From an uncultured Selenomonadales bacterium (GTDB lineage Bacteria; Bacillota_C; Negativicutes; Selenomonadales; Selenomonadaceae), in NCBI GenBank assembly GCA_946407175.1, contig CAMJNB010000002.1:1-15476 (forward strand): a DNA stretch of 15,476 nucleotides, written 5' to 3'. How positions within the stretch are numbered: the first letter of the stretch is position 1; the number at the start of each line of letters is the position of its first letter. The notes under the pieces were generated by a model. The model was given only the letters and a program-made list of their open reading frames with translations. It was not told where the DNA came from and searched no databases. Shown piece after piece: positions 1 to 13,854 of the stretch. Both the position numbers and the translations under genes were made by a program.

Positions 1-9
1 TTGAGATAA

Positions 10-987
10 ATGACACTGAAAGAAATTTTGCGCGACGCGGTAGAGTTAAATGCATCGGACATACATTTAACGGCGGGACAAAAAATTTTTCTGCGCGTGA
101 ACGGCGACTTGGTACAACGCGGCGACGTGTTATCTGTAAACGATTTACAAAATATTTTAAATGAGTTGGTACCGAAAAAATCAGCCGCGCATTTGGAAAA
201 AAATTTGTCGATAGACTTTTCGCACGTTGAAAAAGATTTATCGCGCAGATTCCGCGTAAACGTCTACTATCAGCGAAAAAATTTGGCAGCGGCACTGCGA
301 TTAATTCAAAAAAAAATTCCTACCCTTGACGAGATAGGCGCACCTGCGGCGTTAAAAAAATTTATAAATGCGTCACAAGGTTTAATCTTAGTCACGGGCA
401 GGACAGGCTCCGGCAAGTCCACGACAATCGCCGCCTTTTTAAATGAACTCTGCCACGTACGCCCCTGCCACTTATTGACGCTTGAAGACCCTATAGAATT
501 TGAGTACGACGCTGAAAAATCTTTTGTAAGCCAGCGCGAATTGGGACAAGACTTTTTAAACTTTGCGGACGCGATACGAACGGCGCTTAGAGAAATGCCG
601 GACGTTTTATTAATCGGCGAAATACGCGACGCGGAGACAATGCACGCGGCATTAGAGGCGTCGGCGGCAGGTGTCTTGGTGTTGGCGACGTTGCATACAA
701 AATCTGCGGCAGAAACGGCAATGCGTGTCGAAACAATGTTTCCTTTGGTGCAACGTGACGCGATACGTGATTTGTTTGCGGACGAATTCAGCGCGATAAT
801 TTCTCAGCAACTTTTGAAAACGTCAAGCGGCAAAAGAGTCTGCGCGGCGGAAGTTTTATTGGCTAATCCCGCGTCACGGTCTTTGATACGACAAGGCAAG
901 TATGTGCAACTGCCGACGGTTATGATGAGCGGACAGGCGCAGGGCATGCAGACAATGGAAATGGCGGTTAAACGAATTAAGAATTAA
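10..987 (+). CDS. pilT: Type IV pilus retraction ATPase PilT
   Basis: Hexameric cytoplasmic ATPase that powers depolymerisation of type IV pili (twitching, DNA uptake). The 325-residue protein shows the full secretion-ATPase set: Walker A GRTGSGKS at 130-137 with K136, Asp box LEDPIEF at 158-164, Walker B DVLLIGEIRD at 198-207, and His box LATLHT at 225-230. It lacks the PilB N-terminal domain and tetracysteine motif, so PilT fits better than PilB. The family's AIRNLIRE signature is degenerate here (ASRSLIRQ, 288-295), and Walker A has Arg131 where Pro is usual. The protein is slightly short for the family (about 340-370). The ATG follows directly on TAA at 7-9, so it may be tightly coupled to a gene outside the window. 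No other pilus gene is visible. The stop codon lies inside a GAATTAA repeat. Confidence 0.93.
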   Translation: MTLKEILRDAVELNASDIHLTAGQKIFLRVNGDLVQRGDVLSVNDLQNILNELVPKKSAAHLEKNLSIDFSHVEKDLSRRFRVNVYYQRKNLAAALRLIQKKIPTLDEIGAPAALKKFINASQGLILVTGRTGSGKSTTIAAFLNELCHVRPCHLLTLEDPIEFEYDAEKSFVSQRELGQDFLNFADAIRTALREMPDVLLIGEIRDAETMHAALEASAAGVLVLATLHTKSAAETAMRVETMFPLVQRDAIRDLFADEFSAIISQQLLKTSSGKRVCAAEVLLANPASRSLIRQGKYVQLPTVMMSGQAQGMQTMEMAVKRIKN

Positions 988-994
988 GAATTAA
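974..994. repeat. Heptamer tandem repeat GAATTAA x3 at the pilT 3' end
   Basis: Three exact tandem copies of GAATTAA (974-980, 981-987, 988-994), followed by the degenerate unit AGATTAT. The pilT stop TAA is the end of the second copy, so the repeat encodes the last residues of PilT and continues into the intergenic space. Confidence 0.85.
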
Positions 995-1043
995 AGATTA
1001 TGCTAACCACTATTTAACAATTCATTTTTCAATGTAACTTTTT

Positions 1044-1072
1044 TTTACTTTTCACAGTGTAAAATTTATAAT
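1044..1072 (+). promoter_or_regulatory. Sigma-70 type promoter of the AAA/zipper cassette
   Basis: A perfect -10 TATAAT (1067-1072) lies 17 bp downstream of TTTACT (1044-1049, 4 of 6 matches to TTGACA). It sits in the 138-base gap between pilT and the AAA gene and would start transcription near 1079, about 45 bases before the chosen start codon. This suggests the downstream cassette is transcribed independently of pilT. Confidence 0.6.
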
Positions 1073-1107
1073 ACAAACAGGTATTAATTTTAAATTTTTT
1101 TTACACT
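1056..1107. promoter_or_regulatory. 9-bp inverted repeat flanking the -10 (possible operator)
   Basis: AGTGTAAAA at 1056-1064 and its exact reverse complement TTTTACACT at 1099-1107, separated by 34 bases. The left arm lies between -35 and -10, so it is not in the mRNA from this promoter and cannot act as a leader hairpin. The arm centres are 43 bp apart, close to four helical turns. A paired operator is possible; a binding protein cannot be named. Confidence 0.4.
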
Positions 1108-1125
1108 ATGAAAGGCGTGGTTTTT

Positions 1126-2613
1126 ATGAACTTGAAAGAAAAAGTCGAACGCTACATGAACGCGGGTTTTCCCCTGCTTTACATTGAGACGTTTGAAGAG
1201 GACAAAGCGGATACCTTGATTCACTCCGTTACAAGAGGCAGAAAAATTATTGAATACAGTATCAGAGGGATTAAAAACTACAAGGAAAATATTTTTAATC
1301 CGGCTACACATTTGGCGGACGCGTTGGAAATTTGGCTGGCAGATTTGAACAGCGTGAAACAGTCTATCATAGTTTTGAAAGACGCGCATTTTTTTCTTGA
1401 AATGCCGGAAGTCATTGCAAGATTAAAATATTTGTTGCAGGCGATAAATGCCGGTCAAGCAGATTGCAACGTGGTTATAATCGCGCCGACTTTAAAGATA
1501 CCGCGTGAATTGGAAAACTTCATGACAATTTTGTCGCTCGATTATCTTAAACAAGCGGACATTCGTAAAATCATTGCGGCTTTTTGCAGGGAACAGGACA
1601 TTGAACCGTTGAAAGACGATTTATTAAATGACTTGTCGCTGACATTCAAAGGCTTGAGCGAATTTGAAATTAAAAATATTCTCGCTTTGGCATTAGCCGA
1701 CGAAGGCACGATAACCAGCACCGACCTTTCACTGATTTTTGAACAGAAACAGCAGGTCATTAAAAAATCCGGTATTTTGGAAATGATACCGTTGAAAGAA
1801 TCGCTTGACGATATCGGCGGCTTGGAAAGTCTTAAGAAATGGTTAAAGCGCAAGAGTAAAATTTTCCAAAACATTGATAAGGCTGAATCGTACGGCGTCG
1901 ATATTCCGAAAGGCGTTTTGATAGCCGGTCTGCCCGGTTGCGGCAAATCACTCAACGCAAAGGCTACTGCCAAACTTTTCAACGTGCCGTTGTTGCGTTT
2001 GGATATGGGCAGGCTTATGGGCAAGTACGTCGGCGAATCTGAGGCGAATTTGCGTAAAGCCATTTCTCTTGCTGATGCAATATCGCCTTGCGTGTTGTGG
2101 ATTGATGAACTTGAAAAAGCCTTTGCCGGTATCGGAAGTGAAGGTGGCGGCGGTGATGTTGTAACGCGGCTTTTCGGAACGTTTTTGACTTGGTTGCAGG
2201 AAAAAGACAGTTTGACTTTCGTTGTTGCCACTGCGAATGACATAAGAACAATTCCGCCGGAACTGCTGCGCAAAGGTCGCTTTGATGAAATTTTTTATGT
2301 CGGCTTGCCGAAACCGGATGAGCGTAAAAAAATTTTTGAAATTCATATTCGTAAGCGTCGCAAGAATGACCTTGACAAAATTGATGTGTCAAAGTTAGTG
2401 AAACTTACCGACGGTTACAGCGGCTCGGATATTGAAGGCGTAGTGCGTGACGGCGTTGAGGATGCTTTTTCAAATGATAAAAATGCTGTGACCACAGATG
2501 ACATTATTAAAGCCATTAAAAATACTCATTCGCTTTCTGAAATTATGAAAGACGAGTTGAACAAAATGAAAGACCTTTACGAAACACGTAAGTTTAAAAA
2601 TGCGTCTGAATAA
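1126..2613 (+). CDS. Ycf46-like AAA+ ATPase
   Basis: Predicted AAA+ remodelling ATPase of 495 residues, resembling the Ycf46 family of cyanobacteria and plastids and relatives in other bacteria. The N-terminal region carries FPLLYIETFEE (15-25), like the YPLIYI-type start of Ycf46, in a degenerate P-loop-like domain up to about residue 210. The C-terminal AAA+ domain has Walker A GLPGCGKS (268-275, K274), Walker B LWIDE (324-328, D327/E328), sensor 1 ATAND (368-372), arginine-finger region LRKGRFDE (381-388) and sensor 2 GSD (433-435). ATG 1126 was chosen because AAGGCGTGG lies about 6 bases upstream of it, whereas in-frame ATG 1108 has no ribosome binding site. It is first in a plus-strand cassette, 14 bases before the next gene, which suggests it acts on the product of that gene or the one after. 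The family is fairly sure; the substrate is unknown. Confidence 0.85.
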   Translation: MNLKEKVERYMNAGFPLLYIETFEEDKADTLIHSVTRGRKIIEYSIRGIKNYKENIFNPATHLADALEIWLADLNSVKQSIIVLKDAHFFLEMPEVIARLKYLLQAINAGQADCNVVIIAPTLKIPRELENFMTILSLDYLKQADIRKIIAAFCREQDIEPLKDDLLNDLSLTFKGLSEFEIKNILALALADEGTITSTDLSLIFEQKQQVIKKSGILEMIPLKESLDDIGGLESLKKWLKRKSKIFQNIDKAESYGVDIPKGVLIAGLPGCGKSLNAKATAKLFNVPLLRLDMGRLMGKYVGESEANLRKAISLADAISPCVLWIDELEKAFAGIGSEGGGGDVVTRLFGTFLTWLQEKDSLTFVVATANDIRTIPPELLRKGRFDEIFYVGLPKPDERKKIFEIHIRKRRKNDLDKIDVSKLVKLTDGYSGSDIEGVVRDGVEDAFSNDKNAVTTDDIIKAIKNTHSLSEIMKDELNKMKDLYETRKFKNASE

Positions 2614-2627
2614 GGAGGATTATTATT

Positions 2628-4259
2628 ATGGAAACTAAAAATGAAAACAAATTTATCGCCGCCGAAGTTACTGCCGTTGCTGACAAAGACTTTGTCGTAT
2701 TTGAAGGTATGGGCGAAACTGAGGCAAAGGCGTTTAAGCCGATTTTGCATGACTTCGTGACGTCTTACACGCAGAAGGCGAAAGACGTTTCGGTCGAATC
2801 TTGGCTTACGCAAAAATTGACTGCGGAACTTCCCGACAAATCCCCCGCCGAAATTCAGTCTATCAGCCGCGAAATTGTTTCAAGCGTAACCACGTTTGAC
2901 AAAAATCTTGCGTCAATCAATGAAGACTGCGACAACGGCAAGCTCAAAGAAGTGTGGTTTAAAGAAAAAATTCAAGACGCTTGCTCCGGCATGAGCGTGA
3001 ATGAATACGGCAACTATCTTGCAAATATCGACCGCGACTTGTACCAAACAAATGTACAAATGATGCGCACCATTCAAAGGCAGGACGGCGGTATCAGTCA
3101 AAATCCCAATCTTGACGGCTTTATCGCCGAACAGCAACACGTAAACGACTTCAACACGCAGGCGGCGCTTGAAAATCAATCTTACAGAGCCTATGTGCAA
3201 GCTCCAGGTGAAGGCGGTTACGCAAAAAATTCCGTCGATATCACGATAAAAGACGGCGGCAAAATTATTCATCAGTATCAAGCCAAATTCGGTAAAGACG
3301 CCGACAGAACGATTGCTATGATTAAAAGCGGCGATTACCATAATCAAAGGCTTTTAGTCCCTGCCGACCAGGTTGAGGCAGTTCAAAAGGCTTTCCCCGA
3401 TAAAACCGTTACTGCTTATATTGGCGGCACCGATAAAATTTCTACTAAGTCCAACGGTCTGACAAAGGCTGATGTTAAAAAGCAACAGCTTGACGCGCAA
3501 GCGAAAAATAAAATCAAGGATACGAATTGGGACAATATAAGCACAGAAAAGGTAGCATTGAATCTCGGTCAAAACGCGTTACTTACCGGAGGGCTCGCGG
3601 CAAGAAATGCTGTAGGATTTTATCTTGCAAAAAAAATTTTGTCCGGCGAAAAAATTAATCCCAATGAAATGGTTAAAGAGGCATTGGAAACAGGCGCGGA
3701 CGCGGGCGTAAAAGCGGCGGCGGCAGGTGCGTTGAAAGTTGCCAGTGAAAAAGGAATTATTTCAATGTTGCCGAAAGGTACGCCTGCAGGAATTATTGCC
3801 AATATCGCCTGCGTCGGCATTGAAAATTGCAAAATTATTTGGAAGTGCGTTAAGGGCGAAATCAGCGTTACTAAGGCGATTGACTTAATGGGACGTACCA
3901 CCACTTCAATGGTTGCGGGGCTTGCCGTTGCGGCTAAAGGCGCGGCTATCGGTGCGTCTATCGGCTCCGTCATTCCAGTAGTAGGAACAGCTGTAGGCGG
4001 CTTTATCGGCGGGGCAGTCGGCTACCTTGCAGGCTCCGAAATTGGCAATGTAGTTTATGAAGGCGCGAAGAAAGTTGCGCATACTGCCAAAACCTTTGTT
4101 CAAACAGCTTACAATGCCGCTAAGTCTGTCGGCAATGCAATTGTAAGCGGCGCAAAATATGTTGCTAATGCCGTAAGCAATGTCGTCACGTCCGTTGTAA
4201 GCACCGTGAGCGATATTGGCAGTAGCATAGTTAATGGTTTCAAAAGTATTTTTAATTAA
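2628..4259 (+). CDS. Nuclease-like, glycine-zipper protein of unknown function
   Basis: 543 residues, preceded by a strong AAGGAGG. Three parts are visible. Residues 1-160 are mostly helical and hydrophilic. Residues 164-266 form a compact region with GFIAEQQHVNDFN (E168), NSVDI (D204) and YQAK (Q218, K220), in the order and spacing of an E...D...QxK active site of PD-(D/E)XK nucleases. Residues about 310-543 are Ala/Gly-rich: a hydrophobic glycine-zipper run at 437-476 (GAAIG, GSVIPVVGTAVGG, FIGGAVG) is followed by amphipathic Ala/Val/Ser repeats to the C-terminus. There is no signal peptide. The layout resembles an effector with a catalytic core and a membrane-inserting tail, but that is inference. 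The gene lies between the AAA ATPase (14-base gap) and the frameshifted third gene (20-base gap). It could instead be a phage-like structural or membrane protein. Confidence 0.7.
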   Translation: METKNENKFIAAEVTAVADKDFVVFEGMGETEAKAFKPILHDFVTSYTQKAKDVSVESWLTQKLTAELPDKSPAEIQSISREIVSSVTTFDKNLASINEDCDNGKLKEVWFKEKIQDACSGMSVNEYGNYLANIDRDLYQTNVQMMRTIQRQDGGISQNPNLDGFIAEQQHVNDFNTQAALENQSYRAYVQAPGEGGYAKNSVDITIKDGGKIIHQYQAKFGKDADRTIAMIKSGDYHNQRLLVPADQVEAVQKAFPDKTVTAYIGGTDKISTKSNGLTKADVKKQQLDAQAKNKIKDTNWDNISTEKVALNLGQNALLTGGLAARNAVGFYLAKKILSGEKINPNEMVKEALETGADAGVKAAAAGALKVASEKGIISMLPKGTPAGIIANIACVGIENCKIIWKCVKGEISVTKAIDLMGRTTTSMVAGLAVAAKGAAIGASIGSVIPVVGTAVGGFIGGAVGYLAGSEIGNVVYEGAKKVAHTAKTFVQTAYNAAKSVGNAIVSGAKYVANAVSNVVTSVVSTVSDIGSSIVNGFKSIFN

Positions 4260-4279
4260 ACTCGAAAGGGCGGAATACT

Positions 4280-4510
4280 ATGGCTAAAAAAATCAGATTC
4301 TCTTTAAAATTGAACAATGTCATTGTTAATGATATTGCAGAGCTGAAAGAAAATTTCAATTTAAAAAAAGTCACCGAGTACTTTCTCGACGGCAGACTTC
4401 TCCGCTTTTTGAAAGATCGTTATAACGAAGATGTAGCTTACGAAGACTTAGCCGAAAAAATTAGTTACTTGAGCAAGGACGATAAAAATTTAGGCAAAAA
4501 AAATTTGTAA
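4280..4510 (+). CDS. Third cassette protein, N-terminal part (frameshifted)
   Basis: 76 residues starting with ATG behind AAGGGCGG. The sequence is basic at the start (KKIRFSLKL), then has the segment YFLDGRLLRFLKDRY and an acidic helix. Such segments occur in longer proteins of unknown function in which they continue with a KICKIFGVEY-type stretch. Exactly that continuation is encoded immediately downstream in another frame (4503 onward: ICKIFGVEYTGEEFD). The ORF ends at TAA 4508 just after an A8 run (4496-4503). Deleting one A would join this ORF to the next in a 296-residue protein. It is most likely the 5' part of one gene, broken by mutation, sequencing error or slippage, and not a stand-alone protein. 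Function unknown. Confidence 0.65.
   Translation: MAKKIRFSLKLNNVIVNDIAELKENFNLKKVTEYFLDGRLLRFLKDRYNEDVAYEDLAEKISYLSKDDKNLGKKNL
4496..4503 (+). other. A8 homopolymer at the +1 frameshift site
   Basis: GGC followed by eight A and TTT. With eight A the frame reads GKKNL-stop. With seven A it reads GKKICKIFGVEY and continues into the downstream ORF without interruption. A homopolymer of this length is a known spot for transcriptional slippage, replication slippage and read errors. Confidence 0.75.
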
Positions 4511-4547
4511 GATTTTCGGCGTTGAGTATACCGGCGAAGAATTTGAC

Positions 4548-5171
4548 GTGGACGACATTGCACGGCAGAATGAAATTTTAGCTGTACTCAAACAGCATAC
4601 GGCAGATAAAGAAATTCTTTCGCACTATAAGCAAGTCGCACTTACGCAGGAGGATTTGGCAGACCTGCTTGATGATGAAGTTACGCCTATTTATCTTTGC
4701 GGCGAACAATTTTCTATACCTCTGAGCCTTGAAAATCGCAAGTATATCGGCATTCTCGGTACGCCGAAAATTAAAATTACCGCCAAAACTGCTGAAGAAT
4801 TGACGGCAAGGGGAATTACCTTTGAAAATGTAAATATGCCTGAAAACCTTTTGCCGAAACCGGAAATTGTTGAAGTTGTTCCAGGTCGCGCTATAATTGA
4901 TGGCTTCCCTAATCGTCATCAGATTAGGGCGACAATGCTTCAAGGAACGTTTTCTGAGAACTCCAAGATTCGCATCTTTAGCCCCTACTCGTATCCCCAT
5001 TATAATATTTATGACAACACGTATTCCCCGAATTATATTCATTACAACACGATTTCTGGTTTAGATTATAGTGGTGATACTGTTTATATTAGCCCTAGCA
5101 GTCGCTTTACAGGACTTGACAAAGGTGACATTATCGAAGCCTATGATGTTGAAGAGTCCAAATCTGAATAA
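4548..5171 (+). CDS. Third cassette protein, C-terminal part (frameshifted)
   Basis: 207 residues if read from GTG 4548, but that codon has no convincing ribosome binding site and the open frame extends back to the A8 run, giving about 15 more plausible residues. It therefore looks like the continuation of the gene that starts at 4280. The first ~100 residues are hydrophilic and acidic, with LTQEDLADLLDDEV and the stretch IYLCGEQFSIPLS. The last ~100 look beta-rich and are strikingly rich in Tyr, Ser and Pro (residues about 140-175, including SPYSYPHYNIYDNTYSP). No catalytic motif, signal peptide or membrane segment is seen. It closes the cassette; the next gene is convergent, 50 bases on. 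Function unknown; a partner or adaptor of the AAA ATPase or the zipper protein is inference from position only. Confidence 0.65.
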   Translation: MDDIARQNEILAVLKQHTADKEILSHYKQVALTQEDLADLLDDEVTPIYLCGEQFSIPLSLENRKYIGILGTPKIKITAKTAEELTARGITFENVNMPENLLPKPEIVEVVPGRAIIDGFPNRHQIRATMLQGTFSENSKIRIFSPYSYPHYNIYDNTYSPNYIHYNTISGLDYSGDTVYISPSSRFTGLDKGDIIEAYDVEESKSE

Positions 5172-5221
5172 AACTACTGCTTAGCAAGTTGCAATTTCAT
5201 TTTCAAAATTGGCGGAGCGAT

Positions 5222-6337
5222 TCAAAAGTTCCACAATTGCATTTTCAAAATGCGGCGTACGGATTCGTTGATTCTCTCTTCGGAAATTTCGCCGCTCTTA
5301 ACCGCGTCCAAAATGCTGAGATAAACTTTTTGTTGCGCGTCGTATTCGTGACAGACAAGCGCAATATCAACGCCGGCTTTAATCGCCTTGACGCCGATAT
5401 TGTCAGCGTAATTATCGGTGGCGCCCATTTGTAAATCGTCGGTAATAATAACGCCGCTAAATTTCAATTCGTCGCGCAGAAGTCCCGTGATAATGGCGGG
5501 CGAAATACTGGCGGGATTTTGATCGTCAAGCGCGGTGTACTTCAAGTGCCCCATCATCACCATAAATTTTGAATTGTCATTTTCGGCGATAACCTTTTTG
5601 AAAGGCGGCAGGTCTTCAGCGTCCAAAACTGCCTTGCTGTCCTCAATATCCGAAATGGCTTTATGCGGGTCAATCTTACTCTTGCCGATGCCGGGAAAAT
5701 GTTTCAAGGTGTAGAAAAAGTTTTCGGACTCGTAACCTTTCGCGGCGCTCTCTACAAATTCAGCAACAACCTGCGGGTCTTCAGAAAAATGCCGCGTGTC
5801 TTTGCCGACGTCGGCAACCGGAGCAAAGTTTATGTTGACGCCGATTGCACGAAGATTCTGCGCGGTAAGTTTAGCGCAGTTGTAAGCCTCATTGACGTTG
5901 CCGGTTAAACCGACTTCTTGTTGTGACGGCATAACCTGCAGATCGTGTTTCATACGTGCAACCCTGCCGCCTTCTTCGTCAAGCGCGATGAACAGCGGCA
6001 CTTTTTCATTTGCAACGGCGTTTAAATCCTCTGTAAACTTTTTCACCTGCGCTTTATTCTGCATATTTCTATCAAAGAAAATTATGCCGCCGAAGTGATA
6101 TTGATTCAGCAAAAATTTAATATCGTCGTTCATTTCGGTGCCGTGTACGCCGATTAAAACCATTTGCCCGATTTTTTCAGTGAGCGACATTGACTTCAAA
6201 ATTTCTTCTACGGGGTCGGGCTTTTCAACTTTCGCCGCAACGTTTTTGTCCGCAGGATTTTCAGCGTTGGCGAAACAGCCGCCGGTAAACGCAACAATAA
6301 AAAATATCGCCGCAATGCTTAAAATTTTTAACTTCAA
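5222..6337 (-). CDS. nagZ: Beta-N-acetylhexosaminidase, GH3 lipoprotein
   Basis: Predicted to remove N-acetylglucosamine from muropeptides in cell-wall turnover. GH3 signatures (numbered from upstream GTG 6349): DEEGGRVAR 124-132, KHFPG 216-220, the Asp-His dyad DPH 227-229 that supplies the general acid in NagZ, and the nucleophile region TDDLQMGA 303-310 with D304. The N-terminus is a lipoprotein signal ending TGGC, so the enzyme should be anchored outside the cytoplasmic membrane. TTG 6337 is preferred because AAAAGGTGG lies 8 bases upstream; GTG 6349 overlaps that ribosome binding site. Oddity: the usual KHFPGHG reads KHFPGIG here, losing the second His. The gene diverges from ftsW and converges on the AAA cassette. 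NagZ is the most likely call; another GH3 exo-glycosidase is possible. Confidence 0.85.
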   Translation of the reverse strand: MKLKILSIAAIFFIVAFTGGCFANAENPADKNVAAKVEKPDPVEEILKSMSLTEKIGQMVLIGVHGTEMNDDIKFLLNQYHFGGIIFFDRNMQNKAQVKKFTEDLNAVANEKVPLFIALDEEGGRVARMKHDLQVMPSQQEVGLTGNVNEAYNCAKLTAQNLRAIGVNINFAPVADVGKDTRHFSEDPQVVAEFVESAAKGYESENFFYTLKHFPGIGKSKIDPHKAISDIEDSKAVLDAEDLPPFKKVIAENDNSKFMVMMGHLKYTALDDQNPASISPAIITGLLRDELKFSGVIITDDLQMGATDNYADNIGVKAIKAGVDIALVCHEYDAQQKVYLSILDAVKSGEISEERINESVRRILKMQLWNF

Positions 6338-6375
6338 TTTATTTACCACCTTTTATTAGAGGTTGTTGATAAATC

Positions 6376-6395
6376 CAAAATTCAAAATTCAAAAA
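6376..6395. repeat. Heptamer repeat CAAAATT upstream of nagZ
   Basis: Two exact CAAAATT units (6376-6382, 6383-6389) and a third degenerate one (CAAAAAG, 6390-6396), lying about 40 bases upstream of the nagZ start codon. It has the same 7-base period as the arrays at other gene boundaries in the window. Confidence 0.65.
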
Positions 6396-6513
6396 GACGG
6401 CGCGGATGTATTCGCTGCGGTCAGCCACGTCGGAATTACCGTAACCTTGTTCGTACGTTAAAGTTTGAATTACAACCAACCCTGCGAGCAACATCCGCGC
6501 CATGTTTTCTTTG

Positions 6514-6542
6514 CTACTTTCTTTTGCGCCAAAAGAAAGTAG
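6514..6542. repeat. Perfect 13-bp inverted repeat (hairpin)
   Basis: CTACTTTCTTTTG, a CGC spacer, then CAAAAGAAAGTAG: a perfect 13-bp stem with a 3-base loop. It lacks a GC-rich stem followed by a T run and does not sit at the 3' end of any gene, so it is not a standard intrinsic terminator. It could be the end of a miniature mobile or dispersed intergenic element. Confidence 0.75.
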
Positions 6543-6671
6543 ATTCAAAAAATTTTTTGGATTTTATAAACAGCCCCTAGTTAATATTAAATAAATTTTA
6601 ACAAAAATTTCACATTCACGCCACAAAATTTTAACGTCGACTAAAACTTTCACTTTATTTTCAAAAAGATT

Positions 6672-6682
6672 TATGCTAAAAT
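6672..6682 (+). promoter_or_regulatory. Extended -10 promoter of ftsW
   Basis: TATGCTAAAAT matches the extended -10 pattern TRTGNTATAAT with one mismatch in the hexamer (TAAAAT). No strong -35 lies at the right distance, as is usual for extended -10 promoters. It is about 48 bases upstream of the ftsW start codon. Confidence 0.5.
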
Positions 6683-6729
6683 TTTATAAAACTTAAAGCC
6701 GCGAGCTTAAGGCTTGGGAGGTGAAATTT

Positions 6730-7875
6730 TTGGCGACTTCTCAAAATGCGGTAAAAACCAATTCAACTGCGGAAGGCGAAAAGAAAAGATTTTGGAACAA
6801 CGACACGGAAGCTATCATCGGCATTATGGTCGTACTTTTGATTTTGGGAACCATAAACGTATTCAGTTCGAGTTTCATCATTGCAGAGGCGGAATTTGAT
6901 TCACCGTATTTTTTTCTGAAAAGACATTTGATTAACGTAGCAATAGGATTCATAGCATTCGGAATTTGTTTCAAGGTAGATTATCACAGATGGCGCGGGT
7001 TAATGCCGTTCATACTTTTATTTACGCTGATATCACTGCTGTTGGTGCTTATAATAGGTCCGACGGTAAACGGTGCGCGACGATGGTTGCCATTAGGCGT
7101 TGCACAATTCCAACCGGCGGAAATGGCTAAGCTCGTTGCAATAATGATTATGGCGGCGTACTTGGCACTGCAGGTAAAGGCTAATCGTGAGATAAAATTT
7201 TTTACGCCGCAAATCGGCATAATCGCGGTAATGACAATTTTGACAGAGCAGGAACCGGATATGGGTACGGCGTCGATAATTTTGGGCATACCGATAATTA
7301 TGATAATCGTGTCAGGATTGGAAACAAAAAAAGTTTTAAAACTTCTCGGCGCGGTAATTGTCGGCGTAATACTTTTAATCCTGCGTCAACCGTACCGATT
7401 GGAAAGATTGAAAGTCACCTACGATCCATGGTCGGACGCGCAGAATTACGGCTATCAAACCGTTCAATCACTTTCGGCGATAGGCTCCGGCGAATTGACG
7501 GGAATGGGATTGGGCGTCGGCGTTTCAAAGTACGATTACTTACCTGAGGCTCATACGGATTTTGCCTTCGCGATTTTCTGTCAGGAAAACGGATTTTTAG
7601 GCGCGGTATTTGTATTTTTACTTTTCGCGGCACTGACGATTTACGCGGCGCGTGTCGCCGGTCGTGCACGTGACGAATACGGACAAATTTTATCAATGGG
7701 CATTATGGTTTTAATCGTCGGTCAAGCCGTTGCAAATTTGTTAATGGTCGGCGGAATGTTTCCTGTCGTCGGCGTACCGTTGCCGTTCATAAGTTACGGC
7801 GGCACGTCGCTGATTGTGACAATGGCGGCTATCGGTATTCTTGCCAATATCGGTCGGCTTGGGAATAGGGATTAG
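6730..7875 (+). CDS. ftsW: SEDS peptidoglycan glycosyltransferase, FtsW type
   Basis: Polytopic membrane enzyme that polymerises lipid II into glycan strands at the septum together with a class B PBP. 381 residues with about ten hydrophobic segments. SEDS signatures: GARRWLPLG (115-123), QPAE (128-131), EPDMGT (175-180), LPEAHTDF (271-278, the essential Asp at 277) and PFISYGGTS (352-360). FtsW is favoured over RodA by the IGSGELTGMGLG and LPEAHTDF stretches, but RodA or SpoVE cannot be excluded. TTG 6730 is preferred over GTG 6721 because GGGAGGTG lies 6 bases upstream of the TTG and itself contains the GTG. It is monocistronic and convergent with the binding-protein gene 10 bases downstream. 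The stop codon lies in a heptamer array. Confidence 0.88.
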   Translation: MATSQNAVKTNSTAEGEKKRFWNNDTEAIIGIMVVLLILGTINVFSSSFIIAEAEFDSPYFFLKRHLINVAIGFIAFGICFKVDYHRWRGLMPFILLFTLISLLLVLIIGPTVNGARRWLPLGVAQFQPAEMAKLVAIMIMAAYLALQVKANREIKFFTPQIGIIAVMTILTEQEPDMGTASIILGIPIIMIIVSGLETKKVLKLLGAVIVGVILLILRQPYRLERLKVTYDPWSDAQNYGYQTVQSLSAIGSGELTGMGLGVGVSKYDYLPEAHTDFAFAIFCQENGFLGAVFVFLLFAALTIYAARVAGRARDEYGQILSMGIMVLIVGQAVANLLMVGGMFPVVGVPLPFISYGGTSLIVTMAAIGILANIGRLGNRD

Positions 7876-7902
7876 GGGCTAGGAGTTAGGAGCTAGTCAC
7901 TA
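7861..7902. repeat. Degenerate heptamer array at the ftsW / binding-protein junction
   Basis: Six consecutive 7-base units ending in TA: GGGAATA, GGGATTA, GGGGCTA, GGAGTTA, GGAGCTA, GTCACTA. The ftsW stop TAG (7873-7875) and the stop of the convergent gene (TAA on minus, 7886-7888) are both inside it. Confidence 0.75.
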
Positions 7903-8824
7903 AATCACGTACAAATTTCACGGCGTCGGGGTAGCGCAGACCCGGACTTAACAAAAATAAATCTTGCGGCAGGTAGTACACCTGCTTATTTTTTATTGCG
8001 CCGATAGTCTGCCATGCGTCATTTTCGGCGATAGCTTTTTCCATATTCGATTTTATTTTTTCAATGTCGCCCATACTCGTGACAAAAATAATTTCGGGAT
8101 TCTGCGCGGCAAGCGTCTCCATGCTGTACGGCGCGGCGTCGGGATTATTTTCAAGCGGCGTCATACATGCGGCAACATTTTCCCAGCCGAACATTTTTAT
8201 CACGCAACCTGCAATACTGCCGTCAAGCTGTACGGTTAACCCCTGCGCGGTGCTGTGCAAAATGGCAACGCGCTTTTTTTCGTGCGGCGTACTGTCCAAA
8301 ATATTTTTTATCTTCGCGTCCATTTTATTTACAATCTCGGCACCTTTATCCGTGTTGCCGGTAACCTGCGAAAAAATTTTTACCTCGCGCTTAACGTCGT
8401 CATAAGTTTTCATATTAAGTACAAGCGTGGGAATTTGATTCTGCTCCAACACGTCAAGCAACTTTTCATTCATACCTTTGTTGAGTATCACCAAGTCCGG
8501 TGCGCAGGCTAAAAGTTTTTCCACGTCAATTTGGTAGACGTGACCAATCTCGGCAATGTCTTTCGCCCAATCCGGCGTATTGGTTTTGGACGCGGGGCGC
8601 CCCACGATATTACCGCCTACTTCGTGCAACGGTTCCAAAAATGACGCTGACGTCACGGCAATGCGTTCAGGCTTTGTCTTGAGATAAATTTTCCGCCCCG
8701 CGTCGTCCTCAACTATCGCAAAAACTTTGTCCGGTACGCTTTCAACCTTTTCAGCGCCGCAACCGGTTATAAAAAAAATTGCGGCTATCAATACCGCCAC
8801 ACTAAAAATATTTTTCAAGCTCAT
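7886..8824 (-). CDS. ABC transporter substrate-binding lipoprotein, BtuF/FepB type
   Basis: Predicted to bind an iron-siderophore, heme or corrinoid and deliver it to an ABC importer. 312 residues: lipoprotein signal with ITGC (Cys22), then the two-lobe helical-backbone fold of the periplasmic-binding 2 family. Typical elements are DDAGRKIYLKTKPERIAV (40-57), the middle stretch EKLLACAPDLVILN and the end stretch KNKQVYYLPQD. The ligand cannot be told from the sequence. No permease or ATPase gene is adjacent. Instead it lies 3 bases after the methyltransferase gene, and its ribosome binding site AGGTGA contains that gene's TGA stop, so translation is probably coupled. The 3' end lies in a heptamer repeat. 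Confidence 0.82.
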   Translation of the reverse strand: MSLKNIFSVAVLIAAIFFITGCGAEKVESVPDKVFAIVEDDAGRKIYLKTKPERIAVTSASFLEPLHEVGGNIVGRPASKTNTPDWAKDIAEIGHVYQIDVEKLLACAPDLVILNKGMNEKLLDVLEQNQIPTLVLNMKTYDDVKREVKIFSQVTGNTDKGAEIVNKMDAKIKNILDSTPHEKKRVAILHSTAQGLTVQLDGSIAGCVIKMFGWENVAACMTPLENNPDAAPYSMETLAAQNPEIIFVTSMGDIEKIKSNMEKAIAENDAWQTIGAIKNKQVYYLPQDLFLLSPGLRYPDAVKFVRDLVTSS

Positions 8825-8827
8825 TCG

Positions 8828-10417
8828 TCACCTTTCAACCATAATGTCGCGCGGAATTTTTTTGAACTCTATCTTATACCGCTGCAAAAATTCTTCTCCT
8901 ACTGCGCAACTCTCCGCAAAAATTATGTACGAATCTGCGCGGGTTCGCATTGTCGCCAAAAAGTCATAATCCAATGCGCCTAAATGAAAATAGTACGCCT
9001 CGCCCTTGTACACGCCCATAAATGCCGCGCAGTCATCGCACGCAGGCTTTTCATATTTTGTCGCAGTTTCAGTCGCCCATACATACGCGCGTACCTGTTC
9101 AATGTCTACCGCAGGATTTATTTCATCTTCTACAAAAAGCGGCTCGCCTACCTCATAATAATCAAAACTCCCGCCCGTGCCTTCTACTTTGCCGTAACCT
9201 TCTATCACGCGCCGCACTCTTTCAGCTGTTATCGTTTCGGCGTATGGCTCCATTTCTATCAAAATAAATTTCCTACTGCCGCCGTCCGCCGCATTCAAAT
9301 TTAATACCGCGTGCGCCGTCGTGCCGCTACCTGCAAATGAATCAAGCACGATTGAATTTTTGTCCGTCGCAATAGCAAATAAATTCATCAATAATTCAAT
9401 CGGTTTCGGCGTATCGAAAACATTTTTGTCATCGAAAATTTCTTGCAATAATTTTGTGCCTTTTGTCGCCGTCCCGTACTTGTCGGCATTGAACCACGAA
9501 TTGGGTACGGAGCCGAGCTGTTGCTGTTCACTCAAAAAAACTTTCAACTGCGGTTTGGTTTTGCCGGTCTTGCCAAAAATTATTCTGCCGTCTGCCAACA
9601 GTTCATAAAATTTTTCAGGCAAAACGCGCCAACATCTTCCTTGCGGCGGCAAAAATTCTTCACCTGTATTTGGATTTTTTATTTTGTAAGTCAAATTTGG
9701 TCTGATATTCGGCGCGTCAAACGGGTCAGCCTTCCAAGCGCCGCGCGGGTCATTATCGGGATTTGAAAATTTTGATTCGTCAACCGGCAACGGCAAAAAT
9801 GCAAATTCTTTTATTGAATGCCAAAAAGCCGCATTGGAATTTTTAAGCCGCCGATTTTGTTGCCGCCGCCTTTTGGCGTATGTGATAATGTATTCGTGAT
9901 TTATGCTTAAGTCTGTATCGTTTTGAAGTGACTGCCGAGATTGCCAAGGCAATGCCGTTATAAAATTCTGCGCGCCGAAAATCTCATCGCAAATCAATTT
10001 CAAGTTGGCAACTTCATTGTCATCAATGCTGATAAAAATAGCGCCGTCATCAGCAAGCAGACGCTTAAGCAGTTTTAAGCGCGGATACATCATGCAAAGC
10101 CATTTATCGTGCCGGCTGTAGTCTTCGCCTTCACGTCCGACAACTTGACCAAGCCATTTTTGAATCTGCGGGGAATTTACATTGTCATTGTAAACCCAGC
10201 CTTCATTGCCGGTGTTGTACGGCGGATCTATATAAATGCATTTAACCTTGCCTTCGTACAGCGGCAGGAGAGATTTCAGCGCAATAAGGTTATCGCCGTG
10301 AATGATTTTGTTGCCGGATGTGCCGCCGAAATTGTAACCGTGATTAAGTACGTGGTATGGAACGTGCGCGGCGTAATTTACAATTTTGTCCTTACCAAGC
10401 CAATTAAGTGTAGGCAA
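8828..10417 (-). CDS. Type III Mod-like adenine DNA methyltransferase, solitary
   Basis: Predicted N6-adenine methyltransferase (beta class: catalytic motif before the AdoMet motif). 529 residues with DPPYNT at 64-69 and FAGSGTT at 361-367. The region between is the presumed target-recognition domain. The C-terminal ~100 residues, ending in a FKKIPRDI stretch, resemble the tail of type III Mod subunits. No Res helicase/endonuclase gene is next to it, so it may be an orphan methylase or the remnant of a type III system. Start TTG 10417 is 8 bases after GGAAGGAG. It follows the unknown membrane-protein gene by 18 bases and is translationally coupled to the binding-protein gene downstream. Target sequence unknown. 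Confidence 0.87.
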   Translation of the reverse strand: MPTLNWLGKDKIVNYAAHVPYHVLNHGYNFGGTSGNKIIHGDNLIALKSLLPLYEGKVKCIYIDPPYNTGNEGWVYNDNVNSPQIQKWLGQVVGREGEDYSRHDKWLCMMYPRLKLLKRLLADDGAIFISIDDNEVANLKLICDEIFGAQNFITALPWQSRQSLQNDTDLSINHEYIITYAKRRRQQNRRLKNSNAAFWHSIKEFAFLPLPVDESKFSNPDNDPRGAWKADPFDAPNIRPNLTYKIKNPNTGEEFLPPQGRCWRVLPEKFYELLADGRIIFGKTGKTKPQLKVFLSEQQQLGSVPNSWFNADKYGTATKGTKLLQEIFDDKNVFDTPKPIELLMNLFAIATDKNSIVLDSFAGSGTTAHAVLNLNAADGGSRKFILIEMEPYAETITAERVRRVIEGYGKVEGTGGSFDYYEVGEPLFVEDEINPAVDIEQVRAYVWATETATKYEKPACDDCAAFMGVYKGEAYYFHLGALDYDFLATMRTRADSYIIFAESCAVGEEFLQRYKIEFKKIPRDIMVER

Positions 10418-10435
10418 AAAATCTACTCCTTCCGA

Positions 10436-10888
10436 TTACCAACGCAATTTTTTCTGCCAGCTCTGCAACTCGGCAGGACTAAGCGGCAAGTCAATTTCCT
10501 GCCCGTTGTCGTAGAAAAATTTAAATCTCACTTCCTTAGCGGCAGGGACACCTTTCAAACTTTCTTTCGGCAGACTGACGAACAATTTATTTTCGTGCTG
10601 AAATTGCAGTTGAGTTTGCCTGGTCGCGGCAGGAAGTTCAAATTCTTCGTCGTCAACATAAAGCACGGCTTGCGGAAGAAGTTTTGCGCTGTCGTAGCGA
10701 TAATCCCACAAATTAAGTACGCCGCCTTCCAAGTTGCCCTTGCCGTCGCGTGAAATTTGAAAATCGGTCGCCGCGTACTCTTCAAGCGTCGCAACCTGCC
10801 TGTGATCGTAGTTCCAAACATAAAACATACCGAAAGCGCCGATGCCGATAAAGACAATGCCGAACGCTATAAAAATTTTATGTAACAC
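10436..10888 (-). CDS. Unknown single-span membrane protein
   Basis: 150 residues, not recognised. It has one hydrophobic N-terminal segment (about residues 5-25, IFIAFGIVFIGIGAFGMFYVW) with no lipobox, so probably a membrane anchor. The rest is soluble, looks beta-rich, and contains acidic and Gln-rich stretches. No catalytic motif is seen. Start GTG 10888 lies 8 bases after GGAG. It sits between the zinc-finger gene (30 bases upstream) and the methyltransferase gene (18 bases downstream), apparently in one transcript, but the context gives no clear role. Confidence 0.65.
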   Translation of the reverse strand: MLHKIFIAFGIVFIGIGAFGMFYVWNYDHRQVATLEEYAATDFQISRDGKGNLEGGVLNLWDYRYDSAKLLPQAVLYVDDEEFELPAATRQTQLQFQHENKLFVSLPKESLKGVPAAKEVRFKFFYDNGQEIDLPLSPAELQSWQKKLRW

Positions 10889-10918
10889 TGATTTAACTCC
10901 AAAATTTTAAGCCAAATT

Positions 10919-11149
10919 CTACGCAGCAATTTTTTTAAAATCCACAACTACAATGTCAGTCAAAGAAAGTTTTACTTTATCGACGATTTTTTCAAGTTCG
11001 CGAATAGTTTTGCCGCTGTAAATAACTTCGTCACATTCCGAGCATTTTCTACAAGGAATGTTTCTGATAACCAAAATACATTCATCAAATTCAATTACGT
11101 CAGTTGTTTTATCGGCAAAAGTTTCTGCGCCGCATTTAACACACCTCAA
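10919..11149 (-). CDS. YgiT/MqsA-type zinc-finger protein (orphan antitoxin-like)
   Basis: 76 residues beginning MRCVKCGAE. Cys pairs C3-C6 and C36-C39, with an extra C33 in the segment IPCRKCSECDE, match the YgiT-type zinc finger found in MqsA antitoxins and in short antitoxins paired with DUF4258-type toxins. It ends after the zinc-finger unit and has no HTH domain. TTG 11149 is preferred: GGAGGAG is 8 bases upstream, whereas in-frame TTG 11155 would leave only 2 bases. No toxin gene is found on either side: upstream is a 100-base gap then fhs, downstream a membrane protein. It is therefore either orphaned or uses an unusual partner. Confidence 0.75.
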   Translation of the reverse strand: MRCVKCGAETFADKTTDVIEFDECILVIRNIPCRKCSECDEVIYSGKTIRELEKIVDKVKLSLTDIVVVDFKKIAA

Positions 11150-11190
11150 TTTCAACGCTCCTCCAATTTAGTTGGTAGCTGTTAATCGCT

Positions 11191-11252
11191 AATTCTAATT
11201 CTAATTCTAATTCTAATTCTAATTCTACATTCTTAATCCTTAATCCTTAATT
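11191..11252. repeat. AATTCT x6 hexamer array plus CTTAATC heptamer array
   Basis: Six exact AATTCT copies (11191-11226), then three CTTAATC-type heptamers (11232-11252, last one CTTAATT). They fill most of the gap between fhs and the zinc-finger gene. The fhs stop (TAG on minus, 11254-11256) abuts the heptamers. Read on the minus strand, each hexamer junction contains TAGAAT, one mismatch from a -10 box, but no suitable -35 was seen. Confidence 0.85.
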
Positions 11253-11253
11253 C

Positions 11254-12921
11254 CTAAAACAAGCCGCTGATAATGCCGTCGGGCGTGATATCGATTTTTT
11301 CAGCGGCGGGACGTTTAGGCAAGCCGGGCATAGTCATAATGTTGCCGAGTAAAACTACAACAAAGCCGGCGCCGGCGGAGATTTTAACTTCGCGAACGGT
11401 GACATTAAATTTTTTCGGTCTGCCCAATTTCTTCGCGTCGTCGGAAAGTGAATACTGAGTCTTTGCAATGCAAACGGGTAAGTTGCCGAAACCGAGCTTT
11501 TCAATTTCAGCAATTTGTTTCTGCGCGGCGGGAAGGAAGTCAACTCCTTTAGCGCCGTAAATCTTTTTGGCAACGGCGGAAATTTTATCGGCAATGCTTT
11601 CATCATCTGCGTAGGTGAAATGAAAATCTTTCGGCGCGTCGAAGACTGACTCAACTGCCAACGCTAAACCGATACCGCCGACACTGCCTTCAGCGAAAAC
11701 TTTTGAACGAGCGAACTTTACATTTTTATCCGCGCAGAAAAGTTCGACTGCCGCAACTTCCTCATCAGTGTCGGTAGGAAAATCATTCAGCGCAACTACG
11801 GCAGGAAGTCCGAAGCCTTGAACGTTTTCAATATGCTTTTCAAGATTTTCAAGCCCGCGTTTCAGCGCTTTGACATTCGGCTTGGCAAGTTCATCTTTAG
11901 TAACGCCGCCATGCATTTTCAACGCGCGAATTGTGGCAACGATAACAACGGCGTCGGGACGCAGACCGCTTAACCGGCATTTGATATCCAAAAACTTTTC
12001 AGCGCCTAAATCTGCGCCGAATCCCGCCTCCGTGACAACAACGTCGGCAAGTTTAAGCGCGTACTTAGTCGCCATGACCGAGTTACACCCATGCGCAATG
12101 TTGGCAAAGGGACCGCCGTGAATCAGAGCGGGAGTGCCTTCAAGCGTCTGCACCAAGTTAGGTTTAATCGCGTCTTTCAAAAGCAACGCCAATGAGCCGG
12201 TAACCTTTAAATCGTCGGCAGTTATCGGTGCGCCGTCGACATTGTACGCCACAATAATTTTTCCGAGCCGTGATTTTAAATCTGCAAAGTCATTTGAAAG
12301 ACAGAGTATCGCCATCATTTCTGACGCAACGGTAATGTCAAAGCCGCTTTCACGCGGTACGCCGTTCGTCTTGCCGCCTAGACCTACAATGACATTTCTC
12401 AAGGCGCGATCGTTTAAATCTAAAACTCTTTTCCATACAACGCGGCGAACGTCAATTTTCAATTCGTTGCCTTGATGCAGGTGGTTATCCAAAACTGCGG
12501 CAAGAAGATTGTGTGCGGTGGTAAGCGCGTGAAAATCGCCGGTGAAATGCAGGTTAATATCTTCCATAGGTACAACCTGCGCGTAGCCGCCGCCAGCCGC
12601 GCCGCCTTTTATGCCGAAACACGGACCGAGACTGGGTTCACGCAGTGCGACACAAACTTTTCTGCCGAGTCGGTTTAAAGCGTCGGCAAGTCCGATTGAA
12701 GTTGTAGTCTTGCCTTCACCTGCGGGAGTCGGTGTTATCGCCGTCACCAAAATTAATTTGCCGTCGTCATTATCCTTTACGCGGTTCCAAACGTCCGCGC
12801 AGATTTTAGCTTTGTACTTGCCGTAAAATTCTAAGTCGTCATCAGTCAAGCCCAACTTTGCGCCGATAGAATTTATTTTTGAGATTTTAGCTTGTTGAGC
12901 AATTTCAACGTCACTTAACAT
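11254..12921 (-). CDS. fhs: Formate-tetrahydrofolate ligase
   Basis: Joins formate to tetrahydrofolate with ATP to give 10-formyl-THF, feeding purine synthesis and, in some anaerobes, the Wood-Ljungdahl methyl branch. 555 residues, normal for the family. Signatures: P-loop [11 protein letters not shown] (64-74), [19 protein letters not shown] (about 94-112), the HFTGDFHA stretch (125-132) and the C-terminal [13 protein letters not shown] 12921 was chosen because GAGGTG lies 6 bases upstream; GTG 12930 falls inside that ribosome binding site. It follows 5-FCL by 32 bases, so two folate enzymes are probably co-transcribed. The C-terminus ends at a heptamer array. Confidence 0.97.
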
Positions 12922-12936
12922 TTTAATCACCTCATT

Positions 12937-12978
12937 AGTTTTTAGCTTAGAGCTTAGAGCTTGGAGCTTGGAGCGGTT
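12937..12978. repeat. AGCTTAG/AGCTTGG heptamer array between 5-FCL and fhs
   Basis: Units AGCTTAG (12944, 12951), AGCTTGG (12958, 12965) and degenerate AGTTTTT and AGCGGTT at the edges. The 5-FCL stop (TAA on minus, 12954-12956) and its last residues SSKL are encoded by the repeat. Confidence 0.8.
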
Positions 12979-13526
12979 ATCACCATATCAACATTCACGT
13001 CAAAACTGTCAGCCGGTACGCTGTCGACAAGTTGACAATCGTACGCCAGCGCAATTTTTTTCGCATTAACCGCGCGTGCCAAAAATTTATCATAAAAGCC
13101 GCCGCCTTTGCCGAGCCTGTGTCCGTGCTTATCGAAGGCAAGACCCGGCGTTATCACGCAGTCAATTTTTTCTGCGTCAACAAATTTTCTCACGTCACTT
13201 TTAACCGTTGCAATGCCGTAAGCGCCGACTTCAAGCGAATTGAAATTCGGCAACGTCGCCGCAGTCATTTCACCCGCCGCAATGAACGGTACGGCTAAAA
13301 TTTTTTCATCTGCAAATGCCGCCGTAAAAAATTCGTGGAGCTGAATTTCGTCAGGCATTGAAAGGTATGCCATGATAATTTTCGCGTCACGGTAAACGGG
13401 TAGCGCCAAAAATTTTTGTATGACTGCGCGGCTTAAATTTAATTTTTCGTCCGGTGAAAGTTTTGCCAGCCGCGATTTTATTTCACGCCGCAATAATTTT
13501 TTTCGTGCTATGATATCCTCCGCCAT
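12954..13526 (-). CDS. 5-formyltetrahydrofolate cyclo-ligase
   Basis: Converts 5-formyl-THF to 5,10-methenyl-THF with ATP, returning a stored folate to the one-carbon pool. 190 residues, normal for the family. A basic N-terminal helix ([17 protein letters not shown]) is followed by the conserved PGLAFD (127-132) and GKGGGFYD (139-146) substrate and ATP-binding region. ATG 13526 was chosen because GAGGAA lies about 7 bases upstream; the frame is open back to 13568 but that stretch overlaps the upstream gene. It starts 13 bases after the TIGR04076-like gene and 32 bases before fhs, a sensible pairing in folate metabolism. Confidence 0.92.
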
Positions 13527-13539
13527 AAAAATTTCCTCA

Positions 13540-13854
13540 CTAATCGGCGTCTTCATCAAGCGTCTCAATCAGAAAGCTTACGGGACGAAAACCGTCATTG
13601 CAGGATATCATTGCGGATTTCGGATTTTTCATCCAGCCGCTGTAAAAATTTTCGGCGCCGTGCGACAGAGCCATAACAAAGGCGGACATACTCTCCCACG
13701 CACTTTCGCAAAAACCTTCGGGCCGTTGCCAGCCGTTTGCAATGAAAACCTGCCCTTCCTCAACCGTGCAAGCATTTTCAATGGGATTTTCGTAGCGGTC
13801 AATCAAATCTTGGTGACAAGTTTTTTTAATCACGGTAATTTTTATTTTTTTCAT
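13540..13854 (-). CDS. TIGR04076-like small protein
   Basis: 104 residues resembling the TIGR04076 family of unknown function: a KIKITVIKKTCHQDL start, the central EEGQVFI and RPEGFCESAW, and an ISCNDGFRPVSF end. Three Cys residues (about 11, 28, 49) plus a fourth near the end could bind a metal or be redox-active, but this is not shown. ATG 13854 is preferred over 13866 because its ATGA overlaps the TGA stop of the protease gene, a classic coupling arrangement. It precedes 5-FCL by 13 bases. Confidence 0.75.
   Translation of the reverse strand: MKKIKITVIKKTCHQDLIDRYENPIENACTVEEGQVFIANGWQRPEGFCESAWESMSAFVMALSHGAENFYSGWMKNPKSAMISCNDGFRPVSFLIETLDEDAD

Follow-up and report, generated by a model that had tools for sequence, protein, structure and literature searches.

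The three genes and their condition

The stretch of DNA analyzed here, referred to as the window, comprises 15,476 nucleotides from an uncultured Selenomonadales bacterium (assembly GCA_946407175.1, contig CAMJNB010000002.1, positions 1 to 15,476 of the forward strand). Our subject is a run of three same-strand genes within it, encoding a tandem AAA+ ATPase, a middle protein with a nuclease-like core and a glycine zipper, and a third protein built of two domains, N3 and C3, and a variable tail (Table 1). A sequence-only reading of the window had put these forward as a candidate undescribed system with a possible defense or toxin function.

Examination of the open reading frames (ORFs) bore out the short intergenic gaps given in that reading, namely 14 bases between the AAA+ and middle genes and 20 bases between the middle gene and the third ORF. 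The three-gene arrangement is beyond chance, since the co-occurrence is conserved (see below). On the other hand, the third gene is not the single ORF it was taken for: a stop occurs at 4510, the remainder up to 5171 lies in a different frame, and reading 4280-5168 in one frame encounters 30 stops. Two relatives cover both pieces, P0245 (322 amino acids (aa)) and P0244 (237 aa, shorter at its end), and neither has a counterpart of a 5-residue insertion found in the 5' piece. This insertion fits true decay or rapid change of the third gene, with an assembly error as the alternative. Because the third gene is frameshifted, the copy in the window may be inactive. The suggestion that one promoter serves all three genes was upheld only in so far as a single sigma-70-like match precedes them; the match is weak, and such 10/12 sites exceed the shuffle mean across the region (15 in 900-5400 versus a mean of 8.4).

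Table 1. Features of the three-gene locus (window coordinates)
Feature	Position	Strand	Remarks
AAA+ ATPase gene	1126..2613	+	495 aa; alternative in-frame ATG at 1108
Walker A (GxPGCGKS)	1927-1950	+	invariant in 26 relatives
Walker B	~2089-2109	+	D327/E328 invariant in 26 relatives
Middle-protein gene	2628..4259	+	543 aa; helical N-domain, PD-(D/E)xK-like core, glycine-zipper C-region
Putative PD-(D/E)xK-like core	3111..3443	+	residues 162-272; E168, D204, Q218, K220
Glycine-zipper, possibly membrane-inserting region	3897..4049	+	residues 424-474
Third gene, 5' piece	4280..4510	+	76-aa ORF; N3 domain ~4280-4477; frameshift and stop end the ORF
Third gene, 3' piece	4503..5171	+	other frame; C3 domain ~4503-4868; variable tail ~4869-5168; tail family IF-2 C-terminal-like
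Sigma-70-like promoter match	1044..1072	+	5' of the three genes; 10/12 match; weak

A conserved pair of AAA+ and glycine-zipper proteins

The AAA+ protein has a degenerate N-terminal half followed by an active-looking C-terminal AAA+ domain (residues ~224-467), and residues 264-393 match the Pfam AAA model PF00004 with an E value of 3.8e-29. Like the Walker residues, R382 and G384-E388 are invariant in the 26 relatives. The P-loop pattern is confined to the C-terminal half in 89 of 90 AAA+ sequences compared, the exception (L002) being an N-truncated ORF. By sequence, the nearest solved structures are CDC48/p97 proteins; the label Ycf46-like, which the sequence-only reading had applied, is a loose one, as the Pfam, NCBIfam and PDB matches were of the AAA/CDC48/FtsH type only. 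Some members of the family carry a C-terminal extension; those scanned contained either repeats of the HEAT/LRV type or a biotin/lipoyl-like domain.

In the middle protein, both residue conservation and modest fold matches support the proposed nuclease core; in a structure model the putative core adopts the alpha-beta-beta-beta-alpha-beta order that the PD-(D/E)xK superfamily requires. The core quartet is kept almost without exception (E in 82/82, D in 82/82, Q in 82/82 and K in 81/82), with the qualification that these loci were chosen by patterns containing E168 and QxK, but not D204. The zipper rests on composition together with Pfam glycine-zipper matches that fall under the cut-off, and the protein has a single hydropathy segment (residues 434-452, 1.63). 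The nuclease core is optional, being absent from 19 of the 26 places at which the middle gene occurs in one bacterial family. In L086-L098 and L120 the middle proteins are without it, yet they retain their helical part and glycine zipper and still have an AAA+ partner. We also observed a 484-aa ORF in L106 (1106-2560, minus strand) that partly matches the middle protein (E 4.7e-17) and has an N3-FliN gene nearby; that genome is without a close AAA+ match.

Co-occurrence was assessed in 98 loci (the window, L001-L081, L086-L100 and L120). The expectation that the AAA+ and middle genes lie within 5 kb of one another was strongly borne out: a same-strand AAA+ gene is near 94 of 104 middle ORFs, 77 of them with a gap of 200 bases or less. 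Of the ten remaining ORFs, seven lie less than 1.6 kb from an end of the examined DNA, two are the split ORF of L035 and one is in L042. The third family follows less strictly; an N3 domain was found in 67 of 97 loci, the majority.

The pair is present in several phyla, and its distribution within families is sporadic. Among 151 genomes of the Selenomonadaceae (the family of the Selenomonas locus L002), 24 have the middle gene (E <= 1e-20) and 21 have a close AAA+ gene (E <= 1e-170, 24 copies). For every one of the 24 close copies a middle gene lies 2 kb away or less, the last of these having been recognized with a hidden Markov model in L120, whereas 12 more distant AAA+ matches (1e-135 to 1e-100) have no middle gene nearby at E <= 1e-20. 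Three genomes have the middle gene without a close AAA+ gene: in G058 the copy has stops, and in G066 and G117 the matches are partial. N3 (E <= 1e-6) is found in 20 of the 21 genomes with a close AAA+ gene versus 17 of the 130 others. In the family of Schaedlerella (L008), which we take to be the Lachnospiraceae, the middle gene occurs in 3 of 150 genomes, and a close AAA+ gene in those same three. In the family of Pseudomonas (L073) just 1 of 148 genomes has the middle gene and 95 have an AAA+ match at E <= 1e-70, indicating that a distant AAA+ group is widespread there without it. The Klebsiella-type pair is found in 3 of 5426 E. coli genomes. In Helicobacter bizzozeronii (L049, 8149-9931) the AAA+ gene is split into two ORFs and adjoins an intact middle gene; fragmented CoCoNuT ORFs in Helicobacter are mentioned in PMC11090510.

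A constant module with exchanged tails

The sequence-only reading described the third protein as adaptor-like. The gene is broken in the window, and the family is better read as a constant N-terminal module of about 185 residues (N3 plus C3), for which no Pfam model scored above cut-off, joined to swapped tails. Among 413 pairs of proteins whose modules are at least 85% identical, the tails are less than 35% identical in 208 and at least 60% identical in 186 (the proteins were collected via the constant module, and the same proteins recur across many pairs). With the C-terminal part of the middle protein as a control, 0 of 62 pairs fell below 35%. In the closest relative of the window locus the middle protein is 98% identical and the third protein has kept its constant part and changed its tail. 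P0001 and P0245 were each found on one 3035-base contig of a shared source, and for that reason are taken to be neighbors.

When we surveyed 89 N3 proteins from L001-L100 and L120 with Pfam, the tails included Sel1 repeats (10), pentapeptides (3), TPR (3), beta-propellers (3), Lcl_C (2), DUF6273 (2), DNA ligase (1) and a rubredoxin-like domain (1). An AAA domain was present in two, these being the loci (L095 and L098) in which N3 is fused to the AAA+ protein. A further ten N3 proteins, encoded in genomes where no core was detected, ended in HPr (4, one with Sel1), FliN (2), EF-Tu (1) or nothing matched (3). As for the tail in the window, a profile of four tails that includes it matched the C-terminal domain of IF-2 (PDB 1d1n, E 1.7e-6), a domain that is here joined to the N3-C3 module. 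Other IF-2 entries reached only 0.63 with this profile and single tail sequences only 0.051 and 0.014; the window piece alone gave no IF-2 match at E <= 1, and Pfam gave none for the IF-2-like tails.

Where N3-C3 genes are separate they number one to four per locus. Away from contig ends, a separate N3 gene accompanies 53 of 55 short AAA+ proteins versus 3 of 20 long ones, a contrast that is confounded by ancestry in that the long forms are mostly from Pseudomonadota. Several individual cases are worth recording: (i) L017 (5894-8299) encodes N3-C3 joined to the adenylation and OB domains of NAD-dependent DNA ligase, directly 3' of the core pair; (ii) L109 (612-2348, minus strand) encodes N3-C3 with a truncated EF-Tu that is 76-82% identical to EF-Tu-type ORFs in 7 of 8 related genomes; (iii) L101, L104, L110 and L111 encode HPr-ended proteins, no core pair having been found in their genomes; and (iv) the L101 gene lies near a gene for RNase R.

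Genes around the pair

In 38 of 80 loci a WYL-family gene is located no more than 5 kb away, this count resting on one scanned member from each of two clusters and on profile comparison for a third. The L071 protein scored above the Pfam cut-off, and that of L062 scored below it (19 versus 21.8 bits) but matched a PADLOC WYL model at 1.1e-10. No ORF of the window matched WYL, where the left flank of the AAA+ gene extends only 1.1 kb before the contig end. Matches to DUF932, YqaJ, RadC and Rad52-like families among clusters close to several Lachnospiraceae-type loci point to mobile elements.

The pair sits inside an operon of VWA, CARF, PP2C, kinase and helicase genes in E. coli ZF34 and on a Klebsiella plasmid. 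The ZF34 copy has BREX genes on one side and a Card1-like gene on the other; pglX, pglZ and brxL are upstream of its operon, with two insertion sequences in between. A tblastn search at E <= 1e-5, which distant forms may escape, recovered relatives of the Klebsiella operon's VWA, PP2C, kinase and helicase genes in 5 of 80 loci. Six operon proteins of this type (VWA/TerY-P/CARF/helicase) from L081 gave no tblastn match in the window at E <= 1e-3, again with only 1.1 kb on the left side.

Relationship to described systems

Part of this assembly has been seen before, in a paper on CoCoNuT systems whose authors are reportedly Bell et al. As described there (PMC11090510, eLife 2024), Type III-A CoCoNuT extensions contain a SpoVK/CDC48-like ATPase paired with a glycine-zipper protein, so that the pair is already in print as an accessory and is not undescribed as the sequence-only reading had it. 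The Klebsiella and ZF34 operons match this extension, and the window shares with it a tandem AAA+ protein with Walker motifs and an apparently active ATPase only in the C-terminal half, adjoined by a protein with a PD-(D/E)xK-type fold and a C-terminal zipper. There are also differences. The flanking TerY-like VWA, TerY-P, CARF and helicase genes of the published extension are not in the window (the left side being barely covered), which is likewise without a VWA, CARF, PP2C or kinase gene, and a tailed N3-C3 protein, often with WYL, replaces the C-terminal fusion of the AAA+ protein. In addition, the nuclease fold is called inactivated in PMC11090510, whereas here the core quartet is conserved, and for this reason we consider that label doubtful for a core that looks intact. 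The same source raises the idea that such extensions could act as stand-alone cassettes. The literature searched gave no account of a form that stands alone and has tailed adaptors, nor of the N3-C3 family; the swappable partner appears undescribed.

Two other systems bear comparison. The MoxR-vWA ternary conflict systems, as presented in PMC7159879, similarly have an AAA+ chaperone core, a diversifying third component and swappable modules, but the AAA+ protein here fits CDC48/FtsH-type models rather than MoxR and the window has no vWA gene. The likeness to IetAS is confined to a related AAA+ domain (PADLOC IetA models, E 1.6e-28); IetS models did not match the middle protein or either piece of the third gene.

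A possible conflict module

We favor the possibility (probability roughly 0.55) that the three genes represent a patchily distributed bacterial conflict module, most likely directed against phage. Its constant core is the tandem AAA+ protein and the glycine-zipper protein, with an optional, intact-looking nuclease-like core, and its variable partner is either a separate N3-C3-plus-tail protein or a C-terminal extension of the AAA+ protein, the two being nearly mutually exclusive. Our reasoning for this is that: (i) the AAA+ and middle genes co-occur; (ii) N3 can be fused to the AAA+ protein, and the separate N3 gene and the AAA+ extension nearly exclude one another; (iii) tails are swapped; (iv) WYL genes are frequent neighbors, and BREX, Card1-like and VWA/CARF/PP2C/kinase contexts occur; and (v) the core quartet is conserved. 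In a plausible scenario, the tail would recognize or bind a ligand linked to infection, N3-C3 would dock onto the AAA+ ring, and ATP-driven remodeling would release or assemble the zipper protein. The latter may then harm the membrane, together with DNA or RNA in versions that have the core, halting phage spread at the cost of the cell. A putative role in defense is our best reading of the sequences.

The affinity of the AAA+ protein to CDC48/p97 and the resemblance of tails to IF-2, EF-Tu, HPr and DNA ligase would also suit a quality-control module in which N3 adaptors bring host complexes (translation factors, the phosphotransferase system, flagellar parts) to an unfoldase during a stress response unrelated to phage, with the middle protein as a nucleic-acid-binding protein or membrane anchor. 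Such a role would accord with the link to tmRNA and non-stop translation and the non-catalytic fold proposed in PMC11090510. However, the sporadic distribution, the WYL neighbors, the conserved quartet and the tail swapping all speak against it, and we regard it as unlikely without being negligible. It is harder still to sustain the idea that the AAA+ protein exports the middle protein and N3-tailed effectors as a polymorphic toxin used on other bacteria. A constant N-module with swapped tails does recall polymorphic effectors, and glycine zippers are reported among secreted bacterial toxins in published abstracts, but the neighboring clusters that could be identified (a minority is annotated) are regulators and mobile-element-type genes rather than secretion genes, no immunity gene was recognized among annotated neighbors, and those tails that could be identified proved to be repeats or host-like domains, not toxin domains. 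We find it just as improbable that the pair serves CoCoNuT systems solely, as an accessory cassette lacking any role of its own; it is embedded in such operons in Enterobacteriaceae and in PMC11090510, but a tblastn search that may miss distant forms gave relatives of the Klebsiella-operon genes in just 5 of 80 loci and none in the window.

A cross-phylum core of AAA+ and zipper/nuclease proteins can now be separated from a rapidly exchanged, putative recognition part, and what was known as a CoCoNuT accessory becomes a candidate for a conflict system that stands alone and has an adaptor family to itself. Plant immune receptors use integrated decoys. Since tails resemble host proteins such as IF-2, EF-Tu, HPr and DNA ligase, a bacterial version may be imagined in which N3-C3 displays either look-alikes of host proteins hit by phages or their products or else repeats that bind ligands. 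Interference with the bait would cause the AAA+ ring to fire the zipper/nuclease effector, and tails exchanged between loci would serve as renewable baits. Candidate decoys would be the IF-2 C-terminal-like tail of the window and, in relatives, truncated EF-Tu, HPr, FliN, acyl-carrier protein and NAD-dependent DNA ligase. This elaboration is a long shot. Were it true, the integrated-decoy logic of plants would extend to bacteria, and one could read from the tails which host processes are being attacked.

Other genes in the window

Just 5' of the three genes and on the same strand is a T2SSE-type ATPase (10-987; PF00437, E 5.2e-42). Farther downstream we noted, by reading, a DNA methyltransferase-like ORF at 8828-10417 (minus strand) with no obvious restriction partner adjoining it, and a large ORF at 13851-15467 (minus strand) that contains a HELTH metalloprotease-like motif and ends in a glycine/aspartate-rich stretch.

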